In this document: positions 21,997 to 63,962 of the stretch, in pieces
Position numbering within the stretch: the stretch's first letter is position 1
Layout: each line of letters starts with the position of its first letter
From: Atopobiaceae bacterium
GTDB lineage: Bacteria; Actinomycetota; Coriobacteriia; Coriobacteriales; Atopobiaceae
NCBI GenBank assembly: GCA_017545665.1
Contig: JAFWKQ010000074.1
Span: forward strand, 1-64,000
Reading direction: 5' to 3'
DNA: 64,000 bases
The notes under the pieces: model-generated
What the model was told of the DNA's origin: nothing
Database searches by the model: none
What the model saw: the letters and a program-made list of their open reading frames with translations, nothing else
Made by a program: the position numbers and the translations under genes

Positions 21997-22073
21997 CGGG
22001 ACGTGGCGCAGTTTGGTAGCGCGCACGGTTCGGGACCGTGAGGCCGCTGGTTCGAATCCAGTCGTCCCGACCA
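21997..22073 (+). tRNA. tRNA-Pro (anticodon CGG)
   Basis: The full cloverleaf is visible. The acceptor CGGGACG pairs with CGTCCCG. The anticodon stem CACGG/CCGTG encloses loop TTCGGGA, giving CGG. A T arm GGTTCGAATCC is present and the terminal CCA is encoded. It reads proline codon CCG. Confidence 0.97.
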
Positions 22074-46800: not shown

Positions 46801-47079
46801 GCTCATTATGTTTTAACCCGCATAGCATGGATGCTGGGACAAGAGCCCACGGCACCTTATGAGCAAGGGACTGTGGCGGTCTCGCGCGTGCATGTCCGCG
46901 ACGGAAGTGCTGGGAAGCCTTCGTCCGCGCACTCAAACGCCTTAAATATTTGAGGTAAAGAATCTACCAGAGATCGTCTGTGGACGTTCGCAGACGGCTA
47001 CATTATTAGTAACGGATCCAAAGCGAGGCCAGTCTCAACGGCGGACGATGTGCTCGCAATCAAGTGTAAGGAGCAGTCC
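46801..47079. other. Boundary between core genes and the accessory island
   Basis: No gene, tRNA or clear att site is visible. Composition becomes more AT-rich from about 46940. Confidence 0.4.
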
Positions 47080-48618
47080 ATGAGCAAGAGCGAATCAAAC
47101 GGTAAGATGACGTGCACCGAAATGATTGAGTCCTGGTGTGCAAGAGCAGAGAGATCGGGATACAAAATCAACGCCGAGAAGCTCAATCGCATGCTACAGG
47201 GCGCCGGCCTCATCACGAAGGTCCGCTTGGGTGAAAACAGGGAATTGAAATGGGTTCCCACTAGGGCGGGAGAGCAGATTGGCATTGTGCTGGATAAGAA
47301 AAAAGGCAAATCGGGAAAGACGTACTACAGCATGTACTATACGCCGGAGGCTTCCGAAGCCATTCTAACGCGCTATCTGGCGCCTGACTATCCGCAAAGG
47401 CTTCCTGGCGTCACTCCTCTCTTTGTGCGCGATCGCAAAGCATCCGATTGGTTGGAGCTATTCCATCAGTATCTAAATGAGCGCGCCCAATTTCTTTGCG
47501 ATAGGTGGAACGCTGCCGACGATGCAGAGAAGCTCCATATAGTCGACGAGTATCGGAAGTCGCGCGTGCAGGAGACCGACGAGGCCGTGGACTCGGAGAT
47601 TTACGAGGACGAGCTCTCTGAAAGCTTCTATGTTGCCAGCTACTCCGAGTTCAACGCCTTCGAGTACAACACGCTCATGCAAGTTGTTCTGAACAACATG
47701 GCGCGGCGCCGGAACGGCGAGGTTGGCAATATTAGCATGGCGTCCATAGGCTGTGGATCCGAGATGGACCTTGCTGGCGCTCTGTATGCGGCTTGTTTCT
47801 ATGCAAGCGGGAAAACCAGACTCGAATACGTTCCCGTTGAGCTGGCGCGCTGGCCCCATCGCTTCTCGGAATGGCTCGCGCAGCATACGGACGAAGAATA
47901 TGTCGTTCCTAGCGTCGTGGGCTTGAATGGCGTAGTGCCACAAGGCATAAAGGACGGGAACGGTGCCTGTGACTTCTTTGACAAGGACAACCAAGCGAGT
48001 GTTTGCAAACACAACGTCATCCTGTTCCCCAAAATTATGAGCGAGCTGTCAGATAAGGTGAAGCAAGACCTCGTTGCGGGCATTCGAAACACGTCGTTTA
48101 CCGCTAACGAGGTGTTCGTGTGTGTCTCGCACCTTAACGAATGCTGCCTCGAGGAGCGGCGAAAGTCGGTTGCAACGGGCAACGCGGTATTGGATGCCTT
48201 TAGGGATGCAATGGAAGGCACGCACGACATGGTGCTCGGCGATTCGCTGAAGATGCCCTCATGGTTCAATAGGGGCGAATGGTGGCGGCTGTGGTGCAAT
48301 GTTAACAACGACGTTACCGACTACCCTTGGTTTTCGTTTGGGCCAACTGTGGCGAGCAGGGACAAAGGCTTCACGTACCTGCATATCTCAAAGGTGAGCC
48401 GGGAATTCTCGTGGCTCGATAAAGACGGCGATGGCAAATGCTTCCGGGATTTGGTAGACGAGATGAAAGACTATGTGAGCCAAGGCCATGGCAATTCCGC
48501 CCGAAAGACCGACGAGTTAAAGAACCCGCGGTTCAACTGCTTCGCCCTGCGTGACGATGGCACAAACATGAACGCAGGTCTTGCATTCCAAATCGTGAAG
48601 TTCGTCAAGAGGAAATAG
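47080..48618 (+). CDS. Methyltransferase-like protein with phage-antirepressor-like N-terminal domain
   Basis: 512 residues; AAGGAG lies eight bases before the ATG. Residues about 10-95 form a small domain with KLNRMLQGAGLI, KWVPTRAGEQIGIV, KTYYSMYYTPEASEAILTRYL; the same layout occurs at the N-terminus of the AAA-M41 protein at 50640. Near 219-232, ISMASIGCGSEMDLAGAL resembles SAM-binding motif I of class I methyltransferases, followed by a strand ending in VPVELARW. No catalytic motif IV (DPPY/NPPY) is obvious, so activity is uncertain. Family not recognised. It could be a sensor or modifier in a defence system. Confidence 0.55.
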   Translation: MSKSESNGKMTCTEMIESWCARAERSGYKINAEKLNRMLQGAGLITKVRLGENRELKWVPTRAGEQIGIVLDKKKGKSGKTYYSMYYTPEASEAILTRYLAPDYPQRLPGVTPLFVRDRKASDWLELFHQYLNERAQFLCDRWNAADDAEKLHIVDEYRKSRVQETDEAVDSEIYEDELSESFYVASYSEFNAFEYNTLMQVVLNNMARRRNGEVGNISMASIGCGSEMDLAGALYAACFYASGKTRLEYVPVELARWPHRFSEWLAQHTDEEYVVPSVVGLNGVVPQGIKDGNGACDFFDKDNQASVCKHNVILFPKIMSELSDKVKQDLVAGIRNTSFTANEVFVCVSHLNECCLEERRKSVATGNAVLDAFRDAMEGTHDMVLGDSLKMPSWFNRGEWWRLWCNVNNDVTDYPWFSFGPTVASRDKGFTYLHISKVSREFSWLDKDGDGKCFRDLVDEMKDYVSQGHGNSARKTDELKNPRFNCFALRDDGTNMNAGLAFQIVKFVKRK

Positions 48619-48698
48619 CGTGACAAACCGAATGCCAACCCAGGCTCGGAGACAGTTCCCGAGTTTGGCTGACGATTGCCCCACAAGAAGGAGGCCGT

Positions 48699-49667
48699 AT
48701 GATAATCAGCGTTTCTCGGCGCACCGATGTGCCGTGCTTCTTTTCGGATTGGTTCTACAATCGCGTGCAAGAGGGGTATGTGTGCGTGCGAAATCCAATG
48801 AGCGCGCATCAGGTGAGTCGTATTACGCTGACGCCCGATGTGGTGGATTGCTTTGTGTTTTGGAGCAAGAACCCTGGCCCCATGATTGACCGTCTTGGCG
48901 AGCTGGAGGGGTTTAACTACTACTTTCAGTTCACCCTTACGGGCTATGGCCACGATATTGAGGCGGGTGTACCGCATAAGCGCAACGTCATGATCCCCAC
49001 GTTTCAGCGGCTGGCCCAAATGGTTGGTCCAGAGCGCGTGGTGTGGCGCTATGACCCCATAGCGTTCTCGTCCAAGTACACGACCGACTACCACCTTCAT
49101 GCGTTCGAGTCCATCGCAACGGCCTTGAGGGGTTGCACGGAACGCTGCGTGATTAGCTTCGTGGATACCTACCAAAAGAACAAGGCACGCTTGCGCGAGG
49201 CGGGGCTTTCCGACCAAGGCGATTCCGGTCTCGAGTCGTTTGCGCGTGAGCTTGCCAACGTGGCCAAGCAAAACGGAATGAGCGTGGGTACCTGCGCCGA
49301 GAAGATCGACCTTGCGGCTGTGGGCATCGAGCACAACGCCTGTGTGAGTCGCGAGCTCATACAGCGCATTGCCCATGCTCAGATGAAGGTGGGCAAGGAC
49401 ACTGGGCAGCGCACCGAGTGCGGGTGCGTGCAAAGCATAGACATAGGCACCTATAACACCTGTCGTCTGGGATGCAAATATTGCTATGCCAACTTTAGCC
49501 CCCAGACGATCGCGCAAAACGTCTCTCGTTACGATGCGACGTCGCCGCTGTTGTGCGACGCATTGCGCGAGGACGATGTGGTAACGGAGCGTAAGATGCG
49601 CTCTCTGTTCGTACCGCAGCTAAGTCTATTTGGAGATGGGGACCGCAAATCGGTCGGACGCTCCTAG
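48699..49667 (+). CDS. DUF1848 family protein
   Basis: 322 residues; AAGAAGGAGG precedes the ATG. Family features are MIISVSRRTDVPCFFSDWFYNRV, FWSKNPGPMI, WRYDPIAFS and a Cys-rich C-terminus: TECGCVQSIDIGTYNTCRLGCKYCYAN with CxxGCxYCYA, suggesting an iron-sulfur cluster. The overall shape resembles radical-SAM-like barrels. Function unknown; often found alone in accessory regions. Confidence 0.88.
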   Translation: MIISVSRRTDVPCFFSDWFYNRVQEGYVCVRNPMSAHQVSRITLTPDVVDCFVFWSKNPGPMIDRLGELEGFNYYFQFTLTGYGHDIEAGVPHKRNVMIPTFQRLAQMVGPERVVWRYDPIAFSSKYTTDYHLHAFESIATALRGCTERCVISFVDTYQKNKARLREAGLSDQGDSGLESFARELANVAKQNGMSVGTCAEKIDLAAVGIEHNACVSRELIQRIAHAQMKVGKDTGQRTECGCVQSIDIGTYNTCRLGCKYCYANFSPQTIAQNVSRYDATSPLLCDALREDDVVTERKMRSLFVPQLSLFGDGDRKSVGRS

Positions 49668-49763
49668 CGCGAAGGGTTGGCACGAGACTGTCTTTCCAAA
49701 CTGCAGCAATCGAAAGAGCGGGAGCGGTGGCCGCAAGGATGCGGCGATAAGGAGGTTGCCCCT

Positions 49764-50510
49764 ATGATTTTCGTGACTGGCGACACCCACGGCAATAACG
49801 ATCTCTACAAGATTAGCCCAGACTTTTGGCCCGAGGGGCAGGATCTCATGCGTGACGATGCCCTTATTGTTTGCGGTGACTTTGGCGCACTGTGGTCAGG
49901 CGGTTCGCGCGACGAAGAGCTTCTGCGTTGGTACGAGCGCCAACCGTGGACAACGCTCTTCGTCGACGGAAACCACGAGAACTTCGACCTCATTAATGAG
50001 TTGCCCGTAGAGAGGCGCTTTGGTGGGCGCGTCCACACCATCCCTGGCTATCCGCACGTGATTCATCTGATGCGTGGCGAAGTCTATGACCTGCGGGTTT
50101 CCGATTCCAAGAGCGTACGTGCCTTTGTGATGGGCGGGGCCCCCTCAATAGATGCCGCATGGCGTGTGCCTGGCCTGTCTTGGTGGTTCGACGAGATGCC
50201 CGATTATACGGAATACGACAACGCTTGGCGAAACCTGGAGCGTGTGGGTTGGAGCGTCGACTACGTCTTCACGCACGAGTTACCCTTTGAGGGCGTACGG
50301 GATGCCTTGGAATGGGTCGATGGCTACGAAGAGCCTGAGCCTATCCAAAACGAGCTATCGGAATTCCTGCAGAGCGTTGACGATTGCCTTGACAAAAGAC
50401 GCCTGAAGATGTGGTATGCGGGACATTACCACATTGACGCTGAAATAATGGACGATCAGCATTGCGTGCTCTACGAGCAGGTCTTGGAGCTTGGGTCGAG
50501 CCCCCTTTAA
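49764..50510 (+). CDS. Calcineurin-like metallophosphoesterase
   Basis: 248 residues. GDTHGN at 6-11, VCGDFGALW near 38, a GNHEN at about 74-78 and GHYHID near the C-terminus are the metal-binding motifs. AAGGAGG precedes the ATG at 49764. Such enzymes cleave phosphodiesters or phosphomonoesters; the substrate may be a nucleotide or protein. In the same direction as the flanking island genes. Confidence 0.88.
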   Translation: MIFVTGDTHGNNDLYKISPDFWPEGQDLMRDDALIVCGDFGALWSGGSRDEELLRWYERQPWTTLFVDGNHENFDLINELPVERRFGGRVHTIPGYPHVIHLMRGEVYDLRVSDSKSVRAFVMGGAPSIDAAWRVPGLSWWFDEMPDYTEYDNAWRNLERVGWSVDYVFTHELPFEGVRDALEWVDGYEEPEPIQNELSEFLQSVDDCLDKRRLKMWYAGHYHIDAEIMDDQHCVLYEQVLELGSSPL

Positions 50511-50639
50511 GGAGTGTGAGCGGTAATAGCACGCCGCTTTGCTGTGACCTTTGGGGAAAGGGTGCCACCATTTTAGATACCCCATTGTTTATACTGCTGA
50601 AAACAGTGCAACAATACCAAGACGAGGAGAAATATACGA

Positions 50640-53600
50640 ATGGGTGCCTATGGAATCTCTCTTACGGGTGTCATCAACGAAGCGCGCGACGACGCAAACC
50701 TGAGCGTTGCGCAGCGCGAGGCCCTGCGCAAACTTCAGACGAGCGATGCGAATAAGATTCTGGCCGACGAGGGCTTGTTGGAGGGTAAGCCAAAATATTG
50801 GCATGTGAGCAAAACAGGCCATGACCTTGGCATACGAGAAGGGCAGAGGACGAATGACCGCGGAGAGAGCTACACGGCTATTCTCTACAGCGAGCATGCC
50901 AAGGAAGAGGTAGTGGCAATACTGCTAAAAAGGTTGCTGGGCAACCTGATTTCGGAAAGACAAGATGCGCCAGAAAGTGATGCACAGGTAACAACCCAAG
51001 ATTCAGACGAAGGCAATTTCTATTGGTCTGAGGATCAGGACCACGACGAGATATCGGTTTTTGCGATTGACGACGAGCTCAATGATTATCTGCATGGTCA
51101 AACCACGCCCGATGCCAATATCCAAAAAAACAGGCGTCCAAAAAGACGCGCTCGACTTAGCGATTGCGAACTTAGAAAGCATCGTCGAGACGTTAAGAAT
51201 TTCATTGGCGAATGGCGGTCGTTCCTGACCGGTTCACACGTGGCGCTCGAAAGATTGTTGAATGGGGATGCCGCATCCTGCTTCGCGTCTCTTGTGGTTG
51301 AGGACCAGGCACGATTGAATCAGTTTACGGGTGAGGTCTCTGAGCTGTTTGAGAAATCCGGACAAGGTCCCAGAGGCAAGGCGCTTGTTACCACGCTGTC
51401 GGAGCTTGCCGAGCGCTACGACATCCAGGATTGTCAGTTCGTGGTTGGGGACTATGAGGGAGTGGATCTTCCGGAGGGGCGCCTTTTGGTGCTTGACGGC
51501 CTGCGTGCATTCTTGGATCAATACGAAGAAGACAGGCCCGTACTCGGGATGGATGCAAACAACGCAGCGGTCGACCGGGCCATACGAGAAAAGGCCGTTA
51601 TCGACGCGCTCAAGCGAGAGTCCCTGGGGCGTTACGTGTTGCTGATCGGCACTGATTCCGATCTTCAGGATCTTTGTGCGCTTGATGCCGTGTTCGCACA
51701 GTCCTTTGGTTCCAACCGCATCCAATTGGAGGGTCTTGAGGTTCAGAGCATGGCAAGAATATACCTTCGGGAGCTTGATCCAGAGGTACGTGAACAGACC
51801 AAAGAGATCGAGGGATTCGGAGGCAAGCTTATGCGACACATTGCCTTCAACCAGCGTCTCCAGCCGTTACGCGGTGCTGCGTATGCCAAGCATTTGGCTA
51901 AATACTCAAATAGGGCGCGCAAGCCGATTCTGGAGTGCCCAGAGAATGGATACGACTACGACAGAATCCAATCGAGGCTCGATGCGGTCGTTGGGCTTGA
52001 GGCAGTAAAGCGGACCTTGCACGAGCTTGAGGGCCAAGCTCTGTTTAACATGCGGGCGGAGGCATATGGGCGCGAGGATGTTGCAAGCTGCAAGCACATG
52101 CTCTTTGTGGGGAATCCCGGCACGGGCAAAACTATGATGGCACGCATATTTGCCGACCTGCTTCCCGTTATGGGTGTTATAAAGCTGCCAGAGGGCAAAG
52201 ATGGCAAAGAGAGCAAAAAGGGTAAGTTCAAAGAAGTCACGGCAAGCGACATCTTTTCCATGTATGTAAGTCAAAGTGAGGTAAAGGCGAAGGAGATCAT
52301 TGAGGAGGCACGCGGTGGAGTGCTGTTCGTAGACGAGGCCTACTCAATGATGGGGCATGTGGGAGAAAAAAGCGATGCAACCAGTCAGGTAATTAGCGTA
52401 TTCGTGAAGGCGATGGACGACTACAAGGATGAACTTGTGATTATCTTTGCCGGTTACGAGAAAGAGATGGCACGCTTCATGGAGTCCAATCCAGGACTCA
52501 AGTCGCGGACGCCCTATACGTTCCGTTTTGAGGACTATAGCACCGAAGAGCTCATCGAGCTGTTCTCGCGGAATCTTAGGGATATGGGCTACGACTACGA
52601 AAGGGAATCCGTTGAAGTCAAGCTAAGGGACTTGTTCGAGCGCAATCGCAACTTTAGGGATTTCGGCAACGGTCGTTTTGTGAGGAACGTGGTCTCGGCG
52701 GCAAAGCGCCATCATGCCACTGCCACAAACGACGGCAAGGTGGAAGCCGGCAAGCTATTTGTGATATCGGGCGATGACATCCCAAGCCAAAACGAGCTTA
52801 TGGGTGTTAGCGACTGGTCGTTCAAAGGCGCTCGAGAGCTACTGAAACCACTCATTGGGATGGACCAGATAAAGGAAACGGTCCTTCGCTTCGAAAAGGA
52901 GGTGGCGTATCGGGAACAGATGCGCCTGCAGGGCTGCCCTCTTCCCCGAAAGAACATGCACATGCTTCTTACGGGAAATCCCGGAACGGGCAAGACGACG
53001 CTCGCCCGCATTCTGGGGAAGATCCTATACAACGTAGGCGTGCTTCCTACCAACAAGTTCCTTGAGGTCGAGGGACACGATCTTGCAAAGGTGGGATCGG
53101 GCAATCAGCTAGAGGCGACAAATTACCTTAAAGACGCCATGGGAGGCGTGCTGTTCATAGATGAGGCGTACGCAATCCTGAGCTCACCGGGGAGAGACAG
53201 CATCATTGCCACGCTGGTAAAGGCCATGGAAGACCATAAAGGCGACTTTGTGGTCATGTTTGCGGGATATAGAAAAGAAATGAAGGCCTTTACGGAGTGG
53301 AATCCCGGCTTGGAGTCACGCATTGGCTATAAGTTCGACTTCCAAGATTACGGAGAGGCCGAGCTCCAGGAGATATTCGAGCTCAAGATCAAAAGTGCCG
53401 GCCTTGAGATTACCGAAGCTGCTCAGGAAAAGAGTCGAAATGTGTTCCGGTTCTTCCAAGGCGTACGGGGCATCGGAAACGGTCGCTTTGCTGGGAAGCT
53501 TCTTGATGAGGCGATTTCGCTTCACGCCCAGAGCGCAAGCGTAGCCAATTTGAGGACGCTCGATGCGGACGACATCCCCTCAATAGAGCATATGGCAAGT

Positions 53601-54176
53601 ATTGTGGCGGTAAATGTTGCGTCGTGCTTTGGCAACGACAACAAAGCCGTACTACAACGACGCACCGTACATGAGCTCGGGCATGCCATATGCCTATTGG
53701 AGCTCAGGCGACTTACAAATATCAGGTGTATTACCATACGCGAAGAGGGCACAGGTGCAGCGGCCTATGTGGCATACACACCTAACTTCGAGATAAACAC
53801 TGCCAACGACATAGAAAGCGAAATAGTGGCAGCGCTGGGCGGCTTGGCGGCAGAGGAGGTTGTGCTCGGCGAATATGGTGTTGGGGGGACGAGCGATTTG
53901 GCCCGCGCTACAGAGACTGCTCGAGCATATGTTACGAAAACGGGGCTATCGAGCGCCGGTCTTCTTGTGTACGGTGACGTGGATGTTCACGAGCTGCCAG
54001 AATCGGTGCGTGAGACCATAAGCCAACTGTTGGACGACGCCTTTGCAAAGGCAAGGCGTATTATTGTTGCGCGGAGGAACGTTCTTATAGCCTTGTATGA
54101 GAAGCTGATGAAAGAGAGGACCATATCGGGCGAGTGCGTCATAGACGTGTGGAACCAAATTGTGAGTGGACAATAA
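50640..54176 (+). CDS. Giant AAA+ - AAA+ - M41 (FtsH-like) peptidase fusion
   Basis: 1178 residues; GAGGAG lies upstream. Residues 1-100 form a DNA-binding-like domain (ANKILADEGLL, YWHVSKTGHDLGI, SYTAILYSEHAKEEVVAILL) shared with the 47080 protein. An acidic linker and an unrecognised domain (about 180-430) follow. Two CbxX/CfxQ-EccA-type AAA+ modules have Walker A GNPGTGKT at 491-498 and 779-786, each with a Walker B (GVLFVDEAYSM; GVLFIDEAYAI). The C-terminus is an FtsH-like M41 zinc peptidase: HELGH at 1011-1015, LGGLAAEEVVLGE, then GGTSDLARAT with the third ligand Asp1086. FtsH normally has one AAA domain of another clade and membrane helices; none are seen here. It is probably a soluble ATP-driven protease. 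I know no named family with this architecture. Confidence 0.8.
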   Translation: MGAYGISLTGVINEARDDANLSVAQREALRKLQTSDANKILADEGLLEGKPKYWHVSKTGHDLGIREGQRTNDRGESYTAILYSEHAKEEVVAILLKRLLGNLISERQDAPESDAQVTTQDSDEGNFYWSEDQDHDEISVFAIDDELNDYLHGQTTPDANIQKNRRPKRRARLSDCELRKHRRDVKNFIGEWRSFLTGSHVALERLLNGDAASCFASLVVEDQARLNQFTGEVSELFEKSGQGPRGKALVTTLSELAERYDIQDCQFVVGDYEGVDLPEGRLLVLDGLRAFLDQYEEDRPVLGMDANNAAVDRAIREKAVIDALKRESLGRYVLLIGTDSDLQDLCALDAVFAQSFGSNRIQLEGLEVQSMARIYLRELDPEVREQTKEIEGFGGKLMRHIAFNQRLQPLRGAAYAKHLAKYSNRARKPILECPENGYDYDRIQSRLDAVVGLEAVKRTLHELEGQALFNMRAEAYGREDVASCKHMLFVGNPGTGKTMMARIFADLLPVMGVIKLPEGKDGKESKKGKFKEVTASDIFSMYVSQSEVKAKEIIEEARGGVLFVDEAYSMMGHVGEKSDATSQVISVFVKAMDDYKDELVIIFAGYEKEMARFMESNPGLKSRTPYTFRFEDYSTEELIELFSRNLRDMGYDYERESVEVKLRDLFERNRNFRDFGNGRFVRNVVSAAKRHHATATNDGKVEAGKLFVISGDDIPSQNELMGVSDWSFKGARELLKPLIGMDQIKETVLRFEKEVAYREQMRLQGCPLPRKNMHMLLTGNPGTGKTTLARILGKILYNVGVLPTNKFLEVEGHDLAKVGSGNQLEATNYLKDAMGGVLFIDEAYAILSSPGRDSIIATLVKAMEDHKGDFVVMFAGYRKEMKAFTEWNPGLESRIGYKFDFQDYGEAELQEIFELKIKSAGLEITEAAQEKSRNVFRFFQGVRGIGNGRFAGKLLDEAISLHAQSASVANLRTLDADDIPSIEHMASIVAVNVASCFGNDNKAVLQRRTVHELGHAICLLELRRLTNIRCITIREEGTGAAAYVAYTPNFEINTANDIESEIVAALGGLAAEEVVLGEYGVGGTSDLARATETARAYVTKTGLSSAGLLVYGDVDVHELPESVRETISQLLDDAFAKARRIIVARRNVLIALYEKLMKERTISGECVIDVWNQIVSGQ

Positions 54177-54220: not shown

Positions 54221-55480
54221 CTATGCGAGGCCCTCGTAGGGGCCGCGCGCCCTGTCAAGATACGCAAGGTACTCCTCGACCGTCTTGGAATGGTCCCGGT
54301 TAAGACGCTCCATGAGCCTCTGCCAATCGTTGCCGATTTCAGCGCTGCCAAGAAGCGCTCGCAAGAGGTCTTGCCAAGGGCTGCTCAAGAGCACGGCGGG
54401 AAGGGGTGGCTCCACCATCACGACGCCGTCGCCCGCCGCCGTGAGCCAACGGTAGAACAACTCGAACGGCTTGTTGATGTGTACCATGGTAAGGGCGGTT
54501 GAGGCGGGGTTGCCCGTTTCGCCCTCGAACTGGTCGAACTGGAGGTCGAACCCAAAGCGATCGAACATGAAGTTCGACCTGTCCGAGCGTGCGCGCAAAA
54601 AGAGGTAGCGCCCCTTTTTTGTGCTCGCGCCTTCGTGTCTTAGGCGGGCTTCTGCGTCGGCTTTCGCCTTCTCGATTTCCTTGCCCCGCTCCACGGGCGT
54701 GTCCGAGACCCTTGTACCAACCATACGGTCGACGCGCAGGCGCTGGACCGTGGAGTGGCCCCTCCACTTCTTGGACGAGAAGGTATCGACGTAGTAGTTG
54801 CCCCCTATGTACGCGACCGCCAGTGGCGTTTCGTCGCGCCACGTGCTGCCGTCATCGTCCGAAAGGATGCAGCGTTCGTGCCCTCCTGCCATGGACCTGC
54901 CCTTGTCGCTCCTACGGGCGTTGCTCATGCTTACGTAGCTGTACTGGAAGCGGACCCTCCTTCCCTCCTTCATGGCGCGGAATATGGTCTGCACGGTCCT
55001 GAAGACCTTCTTGTCCTCCGGCTGCATGCGCTCGTCCACGAACACGGTGCCATCCAGGTCATCCTCTTGGTAGATGCTCACGAGGTCGAGCAGGCCACCC
55101 TGCAAACGCTTGCTTTGGTGCATGGTGAGCGTGTGCGACGAGCGGATGGCGTTGAGCAGCAAGTGAACATCGGCAGTCGTAAAGTCGCTGCGCTTGCACC
55201 AAAAGCCTCTGTTGCGGTCGGCCTTCTTTATCTGGATACCAGCGAAGCAGTTGTTTGTTAGCGCCCTCAGGTCACCGCCCACGGTGTTTTCGGCTGGTGT
55301 TTCGCCAAAGCGTTCCTCCAGTATGGCGCGTATGCTAGCGTTCGAGAGCGGGTGTCGCTCGTCGCTGAACCGCTTTAGTATCTCTACGATGCACAGCAGG
55401 CGCTCGCGCGGGTTGTCGCAGCTGAGTCCCTGCGGGAGGAGGCTGGCAAATTCCTCGACGTCGTACTGTGAAAGCGCCAT
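54221..55480 (-). CDS. WYL-domain transcriptional regulator
   Basis: 419 residues with the start at 55480, GAGGG six bases upstream; a longer frame lacks support. An N-terminal winged helix (LLCIVEILKRFSDERHPLSNASIRAILEE, with TVGGDLRALTNN) precedes a WYL domain (ETPLAVAYIGGNYYVDTF in the strand position of the WYL triad) and a C-terminal extension. WYL regulators sense ligands, often nucleic acids or nucleotides, and commonly control defence operons. It is divergent from the helicase gene and convergent with the AAA-M41 gene, so it may control either. Confidence 0.85.
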   Translation of the reverse strand: MALSQYDVEEFASLLPQGLSCDNPRERLLCIVEILKRFSDERHPLSNASIRAILEERFGETPAENTVGGDLRALTNNCFAGIQIKKADRNRGFWCKRSDFTTADVHLLLNAIRSSHTLTMHQSKRLQGGLLDLVSIYQEDDLDGTVFVDERMQPEDKKVFRTVQTIFRAMKEGRRVRFQYSYVSMSNARRSDKGRSMAGGHERCILSDDDGSTWRDETPLAVAYIGGNYYVDTFSSKKWRGHSTVQRLRVDRMVGTRVSDTPVERGKEIEKAKADAEARLRHEGASTKKGRYLFLRARSDRSNFMFDRFGFDLQFDQFEGETGNPASTALTMVHINKPFELFYRWLTAAGDGVVMVEPPLPAVLLSSPWQDLLRALLGSAEIGNDWQRLMERLNRDHSKTVEEYLAYLDRARGPYEGLA

Positions 55481-55687
55481 GGGTGTCCCTCGCAAACGGA
55501 AGTGGGCGGTGAGCACGAAGAACATACCATGGAAAGAGGCAAATTGTGTGCGCGCGTCGGTTTCCCCAACGATAAAACGCTGCGATTTCGCACGTTTGCC
55601 TAAACGAGTAGTTCGCTGGATGTGACTGATTGGATAATGGGTTGCGTATCGCCTGCGACAGATCTTAATGGGCAAGGGGAGTTTGTG
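55481..55687. promoter_or_regulatory. Divergent control region between WYL regulator and helicase
   Basis: About 200 bases must hold both promoters and probably the WYL operator. I do not see a clear inverted operator. GGGGAG at about 55677 is the helicase ribosome site. Confidence 0.4.
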
Positions 55688-58192
55688 ATGGATAATGAGA
55701 CAGAGTATTTTGATTATTTACCTAAGCACGAGAGGGACTTGGAACGCTATCTTGGCCTTCGTAAAGACCCCGATGATGTAATCAAGGAAAACTTGACAAC
55801 GCATATAGCGATAAGTCGCAGAAAACACAGCAGCATGGTGGATTACCGTGATAGCGGAAACAAGATTCGCACACTCATTGAGCGCGCAATCGTTCACTTA
55901 CTCAATAAAAATGGAATCTCCACCAAAGGTGTTGGTGATAATGGCAAAGAAAGAGACATTGCGCTGGCAGACAACATCAATCGCGCTAAGAGAGAGGGAA
56001 TAATAAAAGCTAAGCAAAGTGACTACTATCACGAATGTCGGAAGCATACCAATCCCTTCGAACATGCGAGCCAGGCGTTGCAGGAGCAGGATATTGTTGA
56101 GTCTTTAATATATCTTGACAGGTTGCTGCGCAGCCACCTGATAAATGATCTGCGGAAAAAAGAAATCGCTAAGGGGGTTTCGAACGCCAAAAGGGAATCT
56201 ATGCTCGCGACCTACGACCCCGAAGCAGAAACAAAGGCGGCTATTGCGGATGCAATAAGTCGGACTGAGACTAAATATCAGCAAAGAATAGAGGAACAAA
56301 ACAAACGGGCGCGGGACTTGGATAGGCGATTCGAGGAGTTAACCCAAGAGCGCGATGCTTTAGTCAAGGAACACGAGGCACTGGGTGAACTGTCGGAAGA
56401 GGCGGAACAGAACTACTTGACTAGCGAACAGGAGAATGAAAGCCTTCGCCTAAAGATTGAAGAGGCAAAGCAAAAGCTTGAAGCGACGGAGCAAAAGCTG
56501 GAGACGATAAGGCAAGATCGTGCAGAGGTCATCAAACAACGCGACGAGGTAATGCGGGAAGTGGATGCGGTTCTCAACGAGCACGACTTCATTCGCAAGC
56601 TCCTGCAAAATGGAGGCAAGGCGACGGACGAGCAGCGCAGCGTGATGTTTGCCATTGGTCGCGATGAGCAAGAGCTTAGAAACAACAATAATCGCGAGAG
56701 GCATGGCATCATAAAGGTGAGGGGCGGCGCTGGTACAGGCAAGACCCTGTGCCTTCTTGCTGCAATTATGCATAGGCTGGAAACTGGGGGACAGATGTCG
56801 TTTGAGTCATTGCAGGCTCACAGGAACGCGTTGTTCCTGTGCTTCAACAAAGAACTGGCTGCGTACGTTCGAGGTCTGGTAGCCGGTTTTCCAGAGGTCG
56901 CGGACCGTATTTACGTTGAGAGCTACGATGCCTTCTTGAATCAGCTGGTGGTATGTGACGTGAGGCAAGGCTACGAGTACCTCGAAGACTACAATAAAGA
57001 CAACCGCTTTCCCTACATGTCGGACCTGCCGCACTATTGGGGGCTAATCTACGATGATAGGGAGAGTGGGCCACAGTATTTCAAGAACTCTGTTAGAAAG
57101 CCGGAGAGCTGGACCGTTGGCGAAATCGTCGAGGAGGCCATGAGTGAGGTCGCCAAAAAAGAACCACAGCTCCTGGCCTCTGGCTCGACGATTGCTCGTC
57201 TCGTGGACTCGAGTGAGGCGCGCAACGTCCGTTGGATGACGGACGAGATCCTGTGGATGGATAACCGATACAGTGACGTGCAAGATGCTTTCGCGCGCTA
57301 TCCTCAAGACACTCGCGCGGGACGGGGAGGCGCTCGTCGGGCTGACAAGGGCAGCGATGCCCGCAAGGTGATTCTTGAGGTGTGGCGAGAATTCCAAAAT
57401 AAGCTCAGAGAGCATCGGACGTATACGATGGGCCGGGTTGTTGCAAGGCTCCTGGATCCGAAGTCCAACGATCTTCCGCGGTACGATGTAGTCGCCGTGG
57501 ACGAAGCCCAAGACCTATCGGTAAGCATGGTGCGGCTTTTTAGGAGATTCGTAAAAGACGACGGGTATCTCTTCATAGCGGGTGATGAGGGACAGCAACT
57601 ATATATGCGTGACTTTAGCTGGAGAGACGTGGATGAGGGTTTAGGCTATACTCCTCGGTTCCGCACACTTACCAAGAATATGCGCAATCCACCAGACATC
57701 CAGCGTTTCGTGGAGCGGCTTCACGACACGGAGCTCCCGGACGAAGAGCTCCGTTACATGGGCCAGCCGAACAAAGAAAAGGCCGATCTCGTGTGGGTGA
57801 GCGATCAAGAGATGCCAGGGTGGATCGCAAACATAGTCGACCCAAATCAATCCACGGTTGTTATCACCAACAACAATCATCGCCTGCAGATGGTCAATAG
57901 CCTTACGAGCGCCGGGCTCGAGGTCCGAGAAAGCGTTGAGGGCCATATGAGCGGTGCCATACAAAACGGCCTCTACGTTCTGTCGGTGTTGAGCGGAAAG
58001 GGGCTGGAGTTCGACACGGTTATTGTGGACTACCGCGAGCAACTCTACAGCCAAGATCCTGAGCGGGAGCTTAAGACCCGCAACATGCAATTCACGCGTG
58101 CGCGGAAGCGGCTGTTCGTGTTGCATCACAGCGAGTTGGGAGAGATACCGCTGCTGGAAAACTATCGCGACTACTTCCCAGAGTGGCAGTAA
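55688..58192 (+). CDS. Coiled-coil SF1 (UvrD-like) helicase with HEPN/DUF4145-like N-terminus
   Basis: 834 residues. The helical N-terminal domain (about 40-165; IRTLIERAIVHLLNKNGIS and ECRKHTNPFEHASQ, then LDRLLRSHLI) resembles DUF4145/HEPN-type domains, though the R-x4-6-H spacing is imperfect. A long coiled coil spans about 180-310. The helicase part has Walker A GGAGTGKT at 346-353, DEAQD at 605-609, a GDEGQQLY motif, KNMRNPPDIQRF, GLEFDTVIV and a final QFTRARKRLFV. It likely translocates on DNA or RNA at the cost of ATP. Defence helicases with HEPN partners are known, but this arrangement is not one I can name. Confidence 0.8.
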   Translation: MDNETEYFDYLPKHERDLERYLGLRKDPDDVIKENLTTHIAISRRKHSSMVDYRDSGNKIRTLIERAIVHLLNKNGISTKGVGDNGKERDIALADNINRAKREGIIKAKQSDYYHECRKHTNPFEHASQALQEQDIVESLIYLDRLLRSHLINDLRKKEIAKGVSNAKRESMLATYDPEAETKAAIADAISRTETKYQQRIEEQNKRARDLDRRFEELTQERDALVKEHEALGELSEEAEQNYLTSEQENESLRLKIEEAKQKLEATEQKLETIRQDRAEVIKQRDEVMREVDAVLNEHDFIRKLLQNGGKATDEQRSVMFAIGRDEQELRNNNNRERHGIIKVRGGAGTGKTLCLLAAIMHRLETGGQMSFESLQAHRNALFLCFNKELAAYVRGLVAGFPEVADRIYVESYDAFLNQLVVCDVRQGYEYLEDYNKDNRFPYMSDLPHYWGLIYDDRESGPQYFKNSVRKPESWTVGEIVEEAMSEVAKKEPQLLASGSTIARLVDSSEARNVRWMTDEILWMDNRYSDVQDAFARYPQDTRAGRGGARRADKGSDARKVILEVWREFQNKLREHRTYTMGRVVARLLDPKSNDLPRYDVVAVDEAQDLSVSMVRLFRRFVKDDGYLFIAGDEGQQLYMRDFSWRDVDEGLGYTPRFRTLTKNMRNPPDIQRFVERLHDTELPDEELRYMGQPNKEKADLVWVSDQEMPGWIANIVDPNQSTVVITNNNHRLQMVNSLTSAGLEVRESVEGHMSGAIQNGLYVLSVLSGKGLEFDTVIVDYREQLYSQDPERELKTRNMQFTRARKRLFVLHHSELGEIPLLENYRDYFPEWQ

Positions 58193-58269: not shown

Positions 58270-58291
58270 CCACCTCAAGATATTGAGGTGG
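58270..58291. terminator. Hairpin downstream of the helicase gene
   Basis: CCACCTCAA and TTGAGGTGG pair perfectly around GATA. Lies between the helicase stop and the RNA element. Confidence 0.65.
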
Positions 58292-58350
58292 TCGCGACGT
58301 TTGCGATGAAATGAGGGGGTCTCTCGGTGGCATACTATTTGCAGCAAGAG

Positions 58351-58950
58351 CGAAGCTTGAGAACTGAATCGAGTCCGTTGGACCTCGGTGCATAAGGGGA
58401 TTGCAGCCCTTCCGAGGCGGGATGGATGGGACGGAAGTCCCGGTGGGGATACCCGCCGGGGCGAGCCGCGAGGCGGGCCCGCGAGGGCTGCCGACGAGGG
58501 AGAAAGGCCCAAGCCCAAGTCCTGGCGCGCGCGATGGCGCTCCGAACGTGCAGAACTCCTGGCACACCTCAATAGACGCCCCAGTGGGGAAGAACCTTGG
58601 GACTAGGCGGGTCGCGCCGCTCGACAGTAGGCAAGGAATGCCAAAGGTGTAGTTCGTCTTGAGGTCGGGAAACCGACTATAACAGGAGTCGCTGGCCAAA
58701 GTAGCCGTAGGGACGGTTTGACCTCGAGTATACAAAGTAAAGGGCGAAATCCATCTCTGAAGCTCGGTGAAATCTGGGGGTAACCATTCCCCCGCAGGGC
58801 CCCAAAGGGAGGTTTGGCAGCCTCCTCGGGCAAGAAGCCATGGGTCGCTCCCGGAAGCTCAGACTTGTCTGCCTGCTGACGGAACACGGGGAAGCCATTT
58901 GTAGCGTAGGGCGAAGGCTCACAACGGATTCGATTCAGTTCTCATGCTCG
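58351..58950 (+). ncRNA. Large structured non-coding RNA candidate, about 600 nt
   Basis: A 22-bp terminal helix joins 58359-58380 (GAGAACTGAATCGAGTCCGT and on) to 58922-58943, and can extend to about 30 bp with a bulge. Within it many local hairpins are visible: CCTCGG/CCGAGG at 58383/58412 with AAGGG/CCCTT inside, GGGACGGAAGTCCC at 58428-58441, GGTGGGGATACCCGCC at 58442-58457, and GTCGG-GAAA-CCGAC at 58664-58677. The region has no plausible protein frame. One terminal-helix pair and one in the 58442 hairpin are G-U on the plus strand but A-C on the minus strand, which argues for plus-strand transcription. Size and closed-end layout recall ROOL/OLE/GOLLD-class ornate RNAs; I cannot assign it to one. 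Confidence 0.72.
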
Positions 58951-59112
58951 CGCGCTTCCATCGCTTCGCTTCTGTGGCATTTGGAAACGCCGGCAACGTC
59001 GTTGCGAGTTGATGATTTGCTATGTGACATAGTAAGATGGTGTGAATATATTCGTGAAAATCTTCATTAATATATGTTAGCATGCTCCTATACCAACGTA
59101 TGGGGAGGTTAC

Positions 59113-59436
59113 ATGGCTTTGCCTGCAGAAGTGCTAGACAACATCGTTTCGGTTAGCGAATTCTCGCGTGGCGGTGCCTCGCGTGCGTTCGAGAAGGCCA
59201 AGGGCAGTACGCCGGTTATCGTGATGAAAAACAACAAGCCGACCGCCGTCATAACGTCGCCCGAGGAGTATGCGTACCTGAGCGAGATGGAGGAGGACTT
59301 TATCCTGCTGGGTCAGTCGATTGCGCGTCTCGCGCGCAACGACGTTAGGCCTACCGTCCCGTTTGACGAGGTTCTTGCGGAGTTTGGCATAACCGACTCC
59401 GAGCTCGACGAGGCTGAAGACGTGGGGATTGGCTAG
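59113..59436 (+). CDS. Phd/YefM-family antitoxin
   Basis: 107 residues. GGGGAGG precedes the ATG at 59113. The opening NIVSVSEFSRGGASRAFEKAKGSTPVIVMKNNKPTAVITSPEEY region contains the Phd/YefM dimer-DNA-binding pattern (VIVMKNNKPTAVI). The acidic C-terminus should bind the toxin. The toxin gene follows after two bases. Confidence 0.9.
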   Translation: MALPAEVLDNIVSVSEFSRGGASRAFEKAKGSTPVIVMKNNKPTAVITSPEEYAYLSEMEEDFILLGQSIARLARNDVRPTVPFDEVLAEFGITDSELDEAEDVGIG

Positions 59437-59438
59437 CC

Positions 59439-59768
59439 ATGGCATGGAGGGTCGAGTTCCTGGAAGAAGCGGTTGACGATCTTCGCAAGCTCGATGGGTC
59501 GGTGCGAACACATGTCCTAAAGGCAATTCGCAAGGTTTCGTCAAACCCTCTTCCACAAAGTGAGGGAGGTTACGGCAAGCCTCTTGGGAATCGCAACGCG
59601 ATTGATCTAGTCGATCTTTTCAAAGGTAAACTGCGTTCGGATGGCATACGCATTGTGTACCGTCTGCAACGTTCAAAGACGGAGATGCTCGTTGTGGTAG
59701 TTGGCGTTCGTACGGATGCGGAGGTGTACCGGGAGGCTGCTCGTCGTCGCAAGGCACGTGGGCTTTAA
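59439..59768 (+). CDS. RelE/ParE-family toxin
   Basis: 109 residues. WRVEFLEEAVDDLRKLDGSVR, then YGKPLGNRN, DLFKGKLRSDGIRIVYRL and a basic tail are the RelE layout. It would cleave mRNA at the ribosome or poison gyrase; which one is not clear from sequence. It forms an operon with the antitoxin at 59113. Confidence 0.9.
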   Translation: MAWRVEFLEEAVDDLRKLDGSVRTHVLKAIRKVSSNPLPQSEGGYGKPLGNRNAIDLVDLFKGKLRSDGIRIVYRLQRSKTEMLVVVVGVRTDAEVYREAARRRKARGL

Positions 59769-60264: not shown

Positions 60265-60348
60265 TTCCCGTCGCCGACTAAGCGGATGACGGGTGGCTGG
60301 TGTTTGTGGGTCGGCCAGTGGGGGCATTGCGCCGACTTCGACGTTTGC

Positions 60349-60467
60349 TCTTCCGCGATTCCGATGGGTCGCACTATGAGAAGCGCGTAGACGCGCGTGG
60401 CCGCGAGGGCGAGCCCGTGTGCATCGACGACGAGATTCCGTTCGAGATTCCGGAGAGCTGGGTGTGG
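60349..60467 (+). repeat. Left arm of the 119-bp hsdS inverted repeat
   Basis: About 91 percent identical by eye to the reverse complement of 63610-63728. It encodes the conserved HYEKRVDARGREGEPVCIDD and FEIPESW part of HsdS, so recombination here swaps specificity domains. Confidence 0.9.
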
Positions 60468-60950
60468 GTGCGCATGTCAACGCTCTGCGATTTCGGCAGG
60501 TGCGTGAATATCGAGTATGATGCCGTAGCCCCAGGTACTTGGAACCTCGACCTCGAAGATCTTGAGAAGGATTCGGGACGCATACTCCAGAAGAAGAGAA
60601 AGCGAGCAGATGAGAAAGGTAGCACAAAGCATGTTTTCTCTGCGGGAATGGTTCTTTATAGCAAACTGAGGCCATACCTTAACAAAGTGGCAATAGCCGA
60701 TAAGAATGGAGTGTGCACGTCAGAGATACTTCCTCTGGCTTTTAATGGTGTGACTCCGGAGTTTGCGCAAATCGTTCTCATGGCACCATTGTTCGTTGAT
60801 TACGCTAAGGCTCATTCATACGGAGTAAAGATGCCGAGATTGGGCACAGTTGACGGAGCAAACTTTCTTGTATCGATACCGCCAATTCCAGAACAACAGC
60901 GCATTGTAGAGGCCATTACCAATTTCTGGGTCTTCACCAATCAACAATAA
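60349..60950 (+). pseudogene. Silent hsdS cassette (one target-recognition domain)
   Basis: The frame begins inside the conserved HsdS N-terminal segment without start codon or ribosome site. It contains one target-recognition domain (STLCDFGRCVNIEYDAV ... FSAGMVLYSKLRPYLNKVAI ... SIPPIPEQQRIVEAI) and ends TNQQ. It is in opposite orientation to the expressed hsdS at 63169-63903. After inversion between the repeats it would be fused to the expressed 5' end and give a different DNA specificity. Confidence 0.85.
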
Positions 60951-61184
60951 TGCCAGTCGCGATGCACTTAGCCGGGGCAGTGCGCCACGGATAGACTATG
61001 GCTGTCCATCAGAGTCGATCCACTGACCTCTGTCACCGATAGTGGACTCTGGCTCCTCCGGGTTATCTCTCAGTCTCGGATACGCCCTAATGGGGTATAC
61101 TTCATGTCAGAAGCCACCCCCAAGGGGGAACGGAAGTGGGAGCTGGATAAGCCGGAGCGTTCTCGGGCCCCGGCTTCCGCGCTT
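60951..61184. other. Non-coding gap inside the invertible region
   Basis: No gene seen. It contains a hairpin at 61153-61178 (AAGCCGG / CCGGCTT) suited to ending the leftward DUF3800-like gene. Confidence 0.5.
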
Positions 61185-61799
61185 TTATAGGGCGATTTCC
61201 CTTCGCTCAATCCTCTTTTCCAAGCGTCTCCACTCAAACGCCCAGTCCTCGTGTGCGCCGCCCTTGGCGTCGACGTGGCCCTGCGCCCCGAGAATCTGGT
61301 CTGGCAACCAAAGCCTGGGCTCGTCGTCACCACGCATGTGAGCGAGCCTGACGTTGCCGAGCCAGCCCCTCCGTATGAGACTCACGGCCATCTCACGGTC
61401 GCGCTTGTCCAATGCGTCGCCCCTGGACTCCATGACGACGCGTCCCGCTCCCGCCGAGCCGAGCAGCGGCAGCAGCACCTCAAGGCATTTCCGCCTCGCC
61501 CTCTCCTGCTTCCTTGGGTTGATCGGGCGTCCCGAGACGACGATGGCGTTCATGGCAAGCGACCCCAAGAGCTTGAGGGAGTCCCCCTGCAGGGAGACGC
61601 CCATCTGGCGCCAGTGGAGCTTCTTTGCCCCCTTCGGCAAGAGGGAGCGTAGTCTCTGAATCGCGACCTCGTCCACGGCGCGGTCGACAACCGCGCACAG
61701 ATAGTACGTGGTCTCTCCGTCGAAGGTGCGCATGCTCTCGTCGACATATGCGACTGTCTCGTTGCCCAATGGTGCCTCCCCGTTGCTTTGTGGCATCAT
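61185..61799 (-). CDS. DUF3800-like protein
   Basis: 204 residues with the start at 61799 (a frame 63 bases longer is possible; neither has a good ribosome site). It has the family start VAYVDESMRTFDGETTYYLCAVV with the conserved DE, then KLHWRQMG, a central SGRPINPRKQERARRKCLEVLLP and a late WLPDQILGAQGH. DUF3800 proteins have an RNase-H-like fold and occur near mobile elements and defence genes. Lies inside the invertible region. Confidence 0.7.
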   Translation of the reverse strand: MMPQSNGEAPLGNETVAYVDESMRTFDGETTYYLCAVVDRAVDEVAIQRLRSLLPKGAKKLHWRQMGVSLQGDSLKLLGSLAMNAIVVSGRPINPRKQERARRKCLEVLLPLLGSAGAGRVVMESRGDALDKRDREMAVSLIRRGWLGNVRLAHMRGDDEPRLWLPDQILGAQGHVDAKGGAHEDWAFEWRRLEKRIERREIAL

Positions 61800-61912
61800 A
61801 CCGCTACTAGCTGTCGGGAGCGACCAGTTTGCTTGTCTGTGCTTGGCGAATGTTACGCTCATTACAGACCATTGTTTTGCTCGTGTTCCGACCGCCTCGT
61901 TCTTCTGAACCT

Positions 61913-62005
61913 CTATTGGCGGAGTTGCAAGCCGAGCACCGCATTGAACAGCGCGTCCATGTCCTCCCAGGCAAGTGGGGAGAGCTCGGAATCAGGCCTG
62001 TGCAT
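61913..62005 (-). CDS. Very small gene after the antitoxin
   Basis: 30 residues (MHRPDSELSPLAWEDMDALF and on), beginning 14 bases before the antitoxin stop in another frame. Protein-like composition, but too short to be sure; it may be the remnant of a toxin. Confidence 0.3.
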   Translation of the reverse strand: MHRPDSELSPLAWEDMDALFNAVLGLQLRQ

Positions 62006-62255
62006 TCGTCACCATCTCTGCGAGATGGGCACGGGCCTCGGCAAGGCTCCTTGTGTCCTCCGTCGCCGACGCGCGACCTCGGTCAAGCTCGTCCACGAGC
62101 ATCCTCGCGGCCTCGATGCAGTCCCAGTCGTCGATGTCCACCACGGCGTAGCGGCCACGGCCATTGCGTGTGAGGAACACGGGCTTTCCGGGGGCGACCT
62201 TTCGCAGGACTTCGCCGTAGTTTCGTAGGTCCGTTACGGGCATGATGGTGGGCAT
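61992..62255 (-). CDS. Phd/YefM-type antitoxin, apparently without toxin
   Basis: 87 residues. VTDLRNYGEVLRKVAPGKPVFLTRNGRGRYAVVDIDDW contains the family core PVFLTRNGRGRYAVV. The ribosome site is a run of six G next to a run of eight A, about nine bases before the ATG. No intact toxin gene follows. Confidence 0.8.
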   Translation of the reverse strand: MPTIMPVTDLRNYGEVLRKVAPGKPVFLTRNGRGRYAVVDIDDWDCIEAARMLVDELDRGRASATEDTRSLAEARAHLAEMVTNAQA

Positions 62256-62380
62256 TTCTTTTACCCCCCTTTTTTTTCTTCGATGAATCCGTCGACGTAT
62301 TAAACGATATGATACTACGTCTTCATCTTAGCCATCCCATCGGCCAGACAATCCTCCATATCGAGTGAAAGGAGCCATAC

Positions 62381-63182
62381 ATGAAGGATTACAGGGCCTA
62401 CCTAATGGGGAAGGGCTTCTCCACCCATACCGTCGATTCATACCTGTTCGCCATTCGCCAGATGAGAGGGGATTGGCGAGGAGCCTACGAGCGAAGACTT
62501 GCTCAACCACAAGGACTGGCTCGCCGCACACTTTGCCGCCAAGACTGTCAACCTGCGCGTCACAGCCATCAACTCGTACCTCGACTACATAGGTCATTCC
62601 GGCATCCGGCTGAAGGGCCTTCGCATACAGCAGAAACCTTACCTCGATAACGTAATCAGTCAGGCAGACTACGAATTGCTTCGTGACTCGTTATTGCGTG
62701 ATGGCGAGCTGTTCTGGCACTTCGTCGTGCGATTCCTCACCTGCACGGGAGCGCGCGTCAGCGAATTGCGTCAGTTCACGGTGGAATCGGTGCGAGATGG
62801 ACACCTCGACATCGTCTCCAAGGGCCATAAGCTCAGGCGTATCTACATTCCCACGAGCCTGCAATGCGACGCTGCTAGATGGCTGGATGAGATTGGCCGA
62901 AGGAACGGGTACGTCTTCTCCTCGAAGAGTGGCAAACCGATGACCGCCAGGGGCATATCAATGGGCCTGAAGCGCTTTGCCGAAAAGTACGGCATCGACC
63001 AGGATGTCGTCTACCCGCACTCGTTCCGGCACCGCTTCGCGAAGAACTTCATCGAGAGGAACCCGGACATCGCGTTTCTGGCCGACCTCATGGGCCACGA
63101 GAGCCTCGAGACCACGCGCGTCTACCTACGGCGCACCGCCTCGGAGCAGCGTGAGGCAGTCGACGCAACTATTGATTGGTGA
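62381..63182 (+). pseudogene. Tyrosine recombinase (XerC/D-like) with a one-base frameshift
   Basis: AAAGGAG precedes ATG 62381. The first frame gives an N-terminal core-binding start (MKDYRAYLMGKGFSTHTVDSYLFAIRQMRG, shown to name the part) and then breaks. The second frame continues from GIGEEPTSEDLLNHKDWL. Removing one G from the GGGG at 62468-62471 joins them perfectly (about 266 residues). Catalytic residues are all present: TGARVSELR, SKGHKLR, HSFRHRFA, GHESLETTRVY. Its position between two opposed hsdS segments marks it as the specificity invertase. Its function is currently off, or phase-variable, unless the frameshift is bypassed. Confidence 0.85.
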
Positions 63183-63903
63183 GTTCTTGGAAGGCGTTGT
63201 ATGCCTCTTTGATGCGTGCTTGCTCAGAAATCGGCGGGACAGGGATGAGCACGTCGACAATCTTTGAGACCGCGAGTCCGGGCTGTGCCGTTGCGGTTGC
63301 ATACTGATTGAGGTTGAGGGCTTCAAGCACGAGACAGGCCCAGCCCACGTCAGTCTTATCGAAGCATGTTGTAACAATCGCATGCTCAGTTGCATAAAAC
63401 CCGCCTTCGGCATAATTGACGCATCCACAGAGTGCACCCTGACGGCCCACGATTGGGAAGCGCCCGTTCCTGTTGGACTCTTTCACATATCCGCGGATGC
63501 CGTTGCCGCCGAAACAGGGATACGGATGGTCTCCATCTTGCGTATCACTGATTCTCGCGGCGGCAATGTTTTTGCCAGCTTGCATGCTAAATAGGGTACC
63601 TATCCTCGACCACGCCCAGCTCTCCGGGATCTCGAACGGGATCTCGTCGTCGATGCACACGGGCTCGCCCTCGCGCCCCCGCGCGTCCACGCGCTTCTCA
63701 TAGTGGCCGCCATCGGAAGCGCGGAAGATTACGGACTCGCCGCCCCTGGGGGCCTTGATCTTCTTTTCCTTTATGAGCTTTGCGCGCTCCTTGCGAATGC
63801 GCTCCACAAGCACGGACGCGGGCTCGTCGGCAGGGTCCTGCGGCACGAGCTTTCCCTGCACGGCCATCTGCAGGATTGAGTTACGCAGGTCCTTAGCCTT
63901 CAT
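63169..63903 (-). CDS. hsdS: Type I restriction-modification specificity subunit HsdS (expressed copy, single TRD)
   Basis: 244 residues with the start at 63903 after AAGGAG. The conserved opening KAKDLRNSILQMAVQGKLVPQDPADEPASVLVERIRKERAKLI has the recognisable MAVQGKLVPQDP. One target-recognition domain follows the FEIPESW segment and the protein ends PPISEQARIKEAYNAFQELTNQ region (AFQELTNQ then stop), about half the usual HsdS. Either a half-subunit that dimerises or a gene cut by inversion. Upstream gene end at 63963 is probably hsdM or hsdR. Confidence 0.88.
   Translation of the reverse strand: MKAKDLRNSILQMAVQGKLVPQDPADEPASVLVERIRKERAKLIKEKKIKAPRGGESVIFRASDGGHYEKRVDARGREGEPVCIDDEIPFEIPESWAWSRIGTLFSMQAGKNIAAARISDTQDGDHPYPCFGGNGIRGYVKESNRNGRFPIVGRQGALCGCVNYAEGGFYATEHAIVTTCFDKTDVGWACLVLEALNLNQYATATAQPGLAVSKIVDVLIPVPPISEQARIKEAYNAFQELTNQ
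63610..63728 (-). repeat. Right arm of the 119-bp hsdS inverted repeat
   Basis: Partner of 60349-60467, within the expressed hsdS. The interval between the arms, about 3.1 kb, carries the silent cassette, DUF3800-like gene, antitoxin and recombinase. Confidence 0.9.
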
Positions 63904-63962
63904 CTCATGCTCCTTGCCCATCGGAATTACGCACGCACTGCGTACGCAATTCGACCGCTATA

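Follow-up and report, generated by a model that had tools for sequence, protein, structure and literature searches.

A chromosomal ROOL RNA in Atopobiaceae and its predicted co-regulation with RtcB and Ro60 genes

To our knowledge, ROOL RNAs are among the largest natural assemblies made of RNA only, and have no known function or partner. The literature treats them as encoded by phages and prophages, often near tRNAs, and assigns them no function. One member, ROOL env-120, forms an octameric cage, the structure of which has been solved (PMC12286853). Another is carried by the Ligilactobacillus salivarius megaplasmid, where its deletion revealed no clear function (PMC5643018). In Salmonella, the rsr-yrlBA-rtcBA operon, which contains Ro60, Y RNA and RtcB and is controlled by the sigma-54 activator RtcR, is induced by cleaved tRNA (PMC7790460).

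The RNA described here was found in a window of 64,000 nucleotides (positions 1 to 64,000 of contig JAFWKQ010000074.1, assembly GCA_017545665.1) from a rumen bacterium of the Atopobiaceae. It resembles env-120 in its full-length covariance-model match, terminal helix and covarying stems (PMC12286853), and the L. salivarius RNA in being carried by a host outside phage, but has a predicted WYL operator whereas no regulator was identified for the megaplasmid copy (PMC5643018). Unlike env-120 and the phage-encoded ROOLs of the literature, it is a chromosomal host copy, one of two in a single island, with no adjoining tRNA array and with a putative operator for an RNA-repair regulator. The arrangement in Coriobacteriia is like that of Salmonella in that Ro60, Y RNA and RtcB would answer to one damage-responsive regulator, and differs in that the regulator is predicted to be of the WYL type, the regulon is dispersed rather than one operon, and ROOL is added (PMC7790460). 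A literature search returned no paper naming both ROOL RNA and RtcB.

Identity and descent of the RNA

58354-58948, plus strand: ROOL RNA copy a including its 27-nt terminal helix (covariance-model match at 58360-58939, helix, covariation)

The 600-base structured RNA is a ROOL RNA. When the whole window was searched with cmscan, ROOL (RF03087; Rfam gathering score 99.1) matched at 58360-58939 on the plus strand with 238 bits (E = 7.4e-53) over model positions 1-574 of 574, and was the sole RNA-family match at this place; the OLE, GOLLD, HEARO and group II intron models gave no match in the window at Rfam thresholds. The arms of the terminal helix (58354-58380 and 58922-58948) are 27 nt long, 93% complementary and 541 nt apart. 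The folding energy of the plus strand was -266.9 kcal/mol (z -3.7), which none of 100 shuffles equaled, and the minus strand folded more weakly (-237.4 kcal/mol, z -3.0). The original prediction, an ornate RNA of about 600 nt with a long terminal helix, transcribed from the plus strand, was therefore borne out; from the candidates it had named by size class, ROOL stood while OLE and GOLLD fell away.

Among the 151 Rfam pairs present in copy a, 124 were standard. Across eight Coriobacteriia ROOLs, 76% of consensus pair cells were standard and 47 of the 151 pairs had changed on both sides, compared with 37%-52% and 12-26 pairs when the partners were slid by 1-3 nt, so that compensatory changes, which the original prediction had proposed to look for, were present in the helices. 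The structure is under selection in Coriobacteriia. The stretch has listed open reading frames on each strand, and the RNA that occupies it is full-length and covaries. That the RNA is instead another element (a group II intron, OLE or GOLLD) or a chance fold was refuted by the covariance search: the size class is common to these RNAs, but ROOL alone matches, over its full length and at 7e-53, and the covariation is strong, leaving this reading a negligible probability.

A second, diverged full-length ROOL (copy b; 66424-66996, plus strand, 204.6 bits) was found on the same 103,504-base contig, approximately 7.5 kb downstream of copy a. The two copies are 81% identical, with compensatory changes at 7 pairs. 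ROOL was rare in the order, occurring in 6 of 397 genomes. Below, G000 denotes the window's own genome (3.74 Mb) and G015 the other ROOL genome of the same genus; the five ROOLs of the window's family are G000 copy a, G000 copy b and those of G015, G131 and G137, and the two ROOL genomes of the other family are G252 and G339. The eight Coriobacteriia ROOLs formed one clade (support 100) on a long stem, and because copy b branched outside the group of copy a, G015, G131 and G137, a recent duplication within the island was unsupported. Pairs of ROOLs in direct succession, with about 30-40 nt between them, were seen in the Coriobacteriia MAG G339 (L188:6735-7932) and in a Solobacterium MAG (L212:9127-10236).

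Chromosomal setting and the neighboring WYL gene

54221-55483, minus strand: WYL-family regulator (420 aa from the start shared with homologues; fold similar to PafBC, DriD, BrxR and CapW)
55622-58192, plus strand: UvrD-like helicase, upstream of ROOL
59074-59768, plus strand: Phd/YefM antitoxin and ParE-like toxin, downstream of ROOL (a similar pair is present in the ROOL-less locus of G004)

Gene names at the flanks (ispD, ispF, cysS, recQ) were read from translations. The ROOL island of G000 lies between ispD and cysS, and in G015 a WYL gene and ROOL lie beside ispF/ispD; the equivalent slot of G004 (cysS-ispF) holds a WYL gene and a toxin-antitoxin pair without ROOL. In G137, a WYL-ROOL pair lies between two genes that in G131 are separated by only about 216 bp. 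At the Coriobacteriia ROOL loci examined there was no tRNA array; on the contig stretches examined, the only tRNAs lay about 36 kb upstream (window 21997-22070) and about 33 kb downstream (C23:92363-92437). A tRNA was present within 1.5 kb at 25 of 26 viral ROOL loci, and an array also at five other genome loci. Several chromosomal ROOLs of Firmicutes are likewise flanked by ordinary genes. The Coriobacteriia clade is best explained as host-resident and settled at chromosomal sites.

The helicase and the toxin-antitoxin pair flank the window ROOL, as originally noted, but were rejected as conserved partners, since the ROOLs of G015, G131 and G137 have neither next to them; no evidence was found for a functional link between helicase and ROOL. 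The informative neighbor is the WYL regulator, whose gene adjoins ROOL in G015 and G137 and is one gene away in the window. A search of the ROOL genomes with the generic WYL domain (PF13280) was too broad, missed the divergent WYL protein of the window and returned one neighbor only (G419); the window protein was therefore used as the query, and homologues were found across the family. It matched the PADLOC WYL profile at 3e-13 and the Pfam WYL domain at 20.5 bits, just under the cut-off of 21.8. In Foldseek searches its predicted structure matched PafBC on RNA polymerase (E = 1e-10), DriD (1e-8), BrxR (9e-5) and CapW (2e-4), and the fold and profile matches together identify a winged-helix DNA-binding domain and a WYL domain in the protein. 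Local confidence of the model was good (mean pLDDT 80.5) and global confidence poor (pTM 0.43). PDB sequences searched with a profile of the WYL alignment gave no matches, while the fold search did. PafBC and DriD are damage-responsive activators, and the defense-island WYL regulators BrxR and CapW are repressors. By its modeled fold, the window protein is likely an activator similar to PafBC and DriD, from which it differs in its predicted targets.

The island is rich in defense functions and contains type I restriction pieces, a recombinase and a conjugation coupling protein. At 60300-63921 of the window, two oppositely oriented type I specificity (HsdS-like) genes share a repeat and have a tyrosine recombinase between them, which suggests a specificity locus that can invert. 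Pieces resembling hsdR are found at C23:65136-66151. The contig also encodes a divergent second beta' subunit of RNA polymerase (C23:69393-74213; L003:13394-18214), 1606 aa long and with the NADFDGD motif kept; a sigma-70 region 2 protein follows it (C23:74161-75357), and the island includes a T4SS coupling protein. In other members of the genus only the normal rpoC was seen. As a ROOL-linked feature this polymerase subunit was rejected, since it was not found in G015, the genus's other ROOL genome. Calcineurin-like phosphoesterases occur twice in the island (window 49677-50510 and C23:77453-78211), and chromosomal ROOLs of rumen Ruminococcus (L192:8477-9196, L198:42-761, L207, L215) adjoin a phosphoesterase resembling that at window 49677-50510.

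The ROOL operator and the genes that share it

58272-58289, no strand assigned: palindromic operator ACCTCAAGATATTGAGGT (0 mismatches to ACCTCAA-N4-TTGAGGT)
58331-58336, plus strand: candidate extended -10, TGG-CATACT, 50 bp from the operator centre

The palindrome ACCTCAA-N4-TTGAGGT, with 0-1 mismatch, was found upstream of all five ROOLs of the window's family, at different chromosomal sites, and was absent upstream of ROOL in the other-family genomes G252 and G339. Identity among these five promoters, which are few and related, was 0.88 in the operator and near random in the 5' flank (0.28) and 3' flank (0.34). At up to 1 mismatch the G000 genome contains two sites, both at ROOL promoters, and the single site of G015 separates ROOL from the WYL gene. 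Counted over whole genomes at 1 mismatch, the palindrome was about as frequent as the control pattern; the evidential weight is in the position of the sites, not in their number. From the operator centre to a TATAGT-like -10 the distances at the five ROOLs were 50, 50, 50, 49 and 48 bp (computed for G000a, G000b and G137, and read off the sequences for G015 and G131). Transcription of copy a is predicted to start at about 58343-58346, which puts the operator centre approximately 61 bp upstream, a distance that suits an activator.

In relatives, the palindrome also precedes the WYL gene, rtcB and a TROVE/Ro60 gene. A systematic scan at up to 3 mismatches placed it before 10 of 12 TROVE, 8 of 21 rtcB and 17 of 29 WYL genes, and reversed and complemented patterns used as controls scored 0. 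The two TROVE genes without a site (G003, G008) and five of the rtcB genes without one (G003, G006, G007, G008, G009) belong to genomes in which the window-type WYL protein had no strong match. A -10 was placed 51 bp from the operator centre at TROVE (z 4.4) and at rtcB (z 5.5), and in none of the three promoter classes did more than 1 of 20,000 shuffles give a spacing as good; Fisher tests performed alongside the shuffles ignore relatedness. At the family level, the site is shared by rtcB, Ro60/Y RNA and ROOL. Y-RNA-like (YrlA) modules, below Rfam's curated score with E values of 1e-7 to 2e-5, lie between operator and TROVE in G131, G132, G135 and G137, which is the order that a unit of Ro60 and Y RNA should have. 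Downstream of recQ in G131, the operator precedes ROOL, and in this genome the WYL gene and rtcB are divergent; at recQ in G137, it precedes rtcB, and the WYL gene adjoins ROOL. The pair reads as a swap, in which the putative recQ-side operator would serve ROOL in one genome and rtcB in the other, and the WYL gene neighbors rtcB or ROOL, respectively. Co-regulation of ROOL with rtcB, Ro60 and the WYL gene, as predicted from these sites, is well supported.

In the window's own genome no TROVE gene was found, and neither rtcB (contig C52) nor the WYL gene itself has an operator, so that the link of ROOL to repair genes rests on relatives. There the regulon may consist of ROOL alone, plus a run of genes at 47050-54176, which is preceded by a weaker site suggesting that it is likewise under operator control:

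46939-46956, no strand assigned: weaker operator, 2 mismatches (TACATT 51 bp from its centre)
47050-48618, plus strand: 522-aa protein, possible regulon member (no Pfam, NCBIfam or PADLOC match)
48699-49667, plus strand: DUF1848 protein, second gene of the run
49677-50510, plus strand: calcineurin-like phosphoesterase
50640-54176, plus strand: protein with two CbxX/SpoVK-type AAA+ domains and an M41 peptidase

Around non-coriobacterial ROOLs, neither RtcB nor TROVE was found within about 10 kb or less on each side, and matches to the WYL profile at ROOL loci were confined to Coriobacteriia. Elsewhere in G131, an exact operator copy is followed by about 400 nt with no predicted gene and no Rfam match (L262:7922-8346; G131:C2:119921-120345), possibly a further RNA of the regulon. 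A protein of about 190 aa has an operator beside its gene in two genomes (L264:4078-4656, L279:4164-4721), gave no Pfam match in the one copy scanned, and is a possible regulon member.

Proposed role and competing readings

The reading we prefer, with a probability of roughly 0.6, is that a WYL activator resembling PafBC and DriD switches ROOL on in a response to RNA damage. ROOL is thereby placed among the effectors of that response through the regulator that it would have in common with Ro60/Y RNA and RtcB. We infer from the sites and the modeled fold that the WYL protein would bind the palindrome and activate transcription upon a damage signal, and that the window copy would form a cage with a role in the response. 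Damage to RNA, above all tRNA, or to DNA, as in phage attack, would activate the WYL regulator; the regulator would bind ACCTCAA-N4-TTGAGGT about 61 bp upstream of the start and turn on ROOL, and in relatives would also control Ro60 with its Y-RNA-like partner and the RNA ligase RtcB. ROOL would then accumulate and assemble into an RNA cage, which may shelter or sequester RNA or ribosomal particles, with repair by RtcB and sorting by Ro60/Y RNA going on meanwhile.

Two other readings were weighed. The RNA might be a passenger of mobile DNA, its palindrome moved along as part of its own promoter, with no role in RNA repair. ROOLs elsewhere are phage-borne beside tRNA arrays, the island holds the restriction pieces, recombinase and coupling protein listed above, and ROOL presence is patchy. 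However, genomes without ROOL have the palindrome, with its -10 spacing, before rtcB and Ro60, the palindrome is also found before the WYL gene, and the operator was kept around ROOL although its flanks diverged; we regard this reading as unlikely.

Less likely still is that the WYL protein is a repressor and ROOL belongs to a defense or plasmid-maintenance circuit rather than to RNA repair; a role of this kind has been suggested for the megaplasmid ROOL of L. salivarius, the loss of which lowered megaplasmid copy number (PMC5643018). The defense-rich island would suit such a circuit. BrxR and CapW do repress, but are the weaker fold matches, the best being activators; the operator centre is at an activator-typical distance from the predicted start, not over the promoter; and the regulon partners are RtcB and Ro60, not defense genes.

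If instead, as we prefer, ROOL is activated within an RNA-damage response, the induction of the Salmonella operon by cleaved tRNA and the position of phage ROOLs beside tRNA arrays fit a theme of tRNA damage. A wider proposal, which we offer only tentatively, is that ROOL cages are RNA-damage effectors in general: hosts would induce them together with RtcB and Ro60/Y RNA through a WYL activator, and the tRNA-array copies of phages would serve the same purpose, protecting or replacing tRNA cut in phage-host conflict.

As far as we have found, the operator shared with RtcB and Ro60 is the first link of ROOL to a defined physiological response. The connection to RNA damage would give the first concrete lead to the purpose of the cage, and may help to explain the retention of ROOL next to tRNA arrays in phages.
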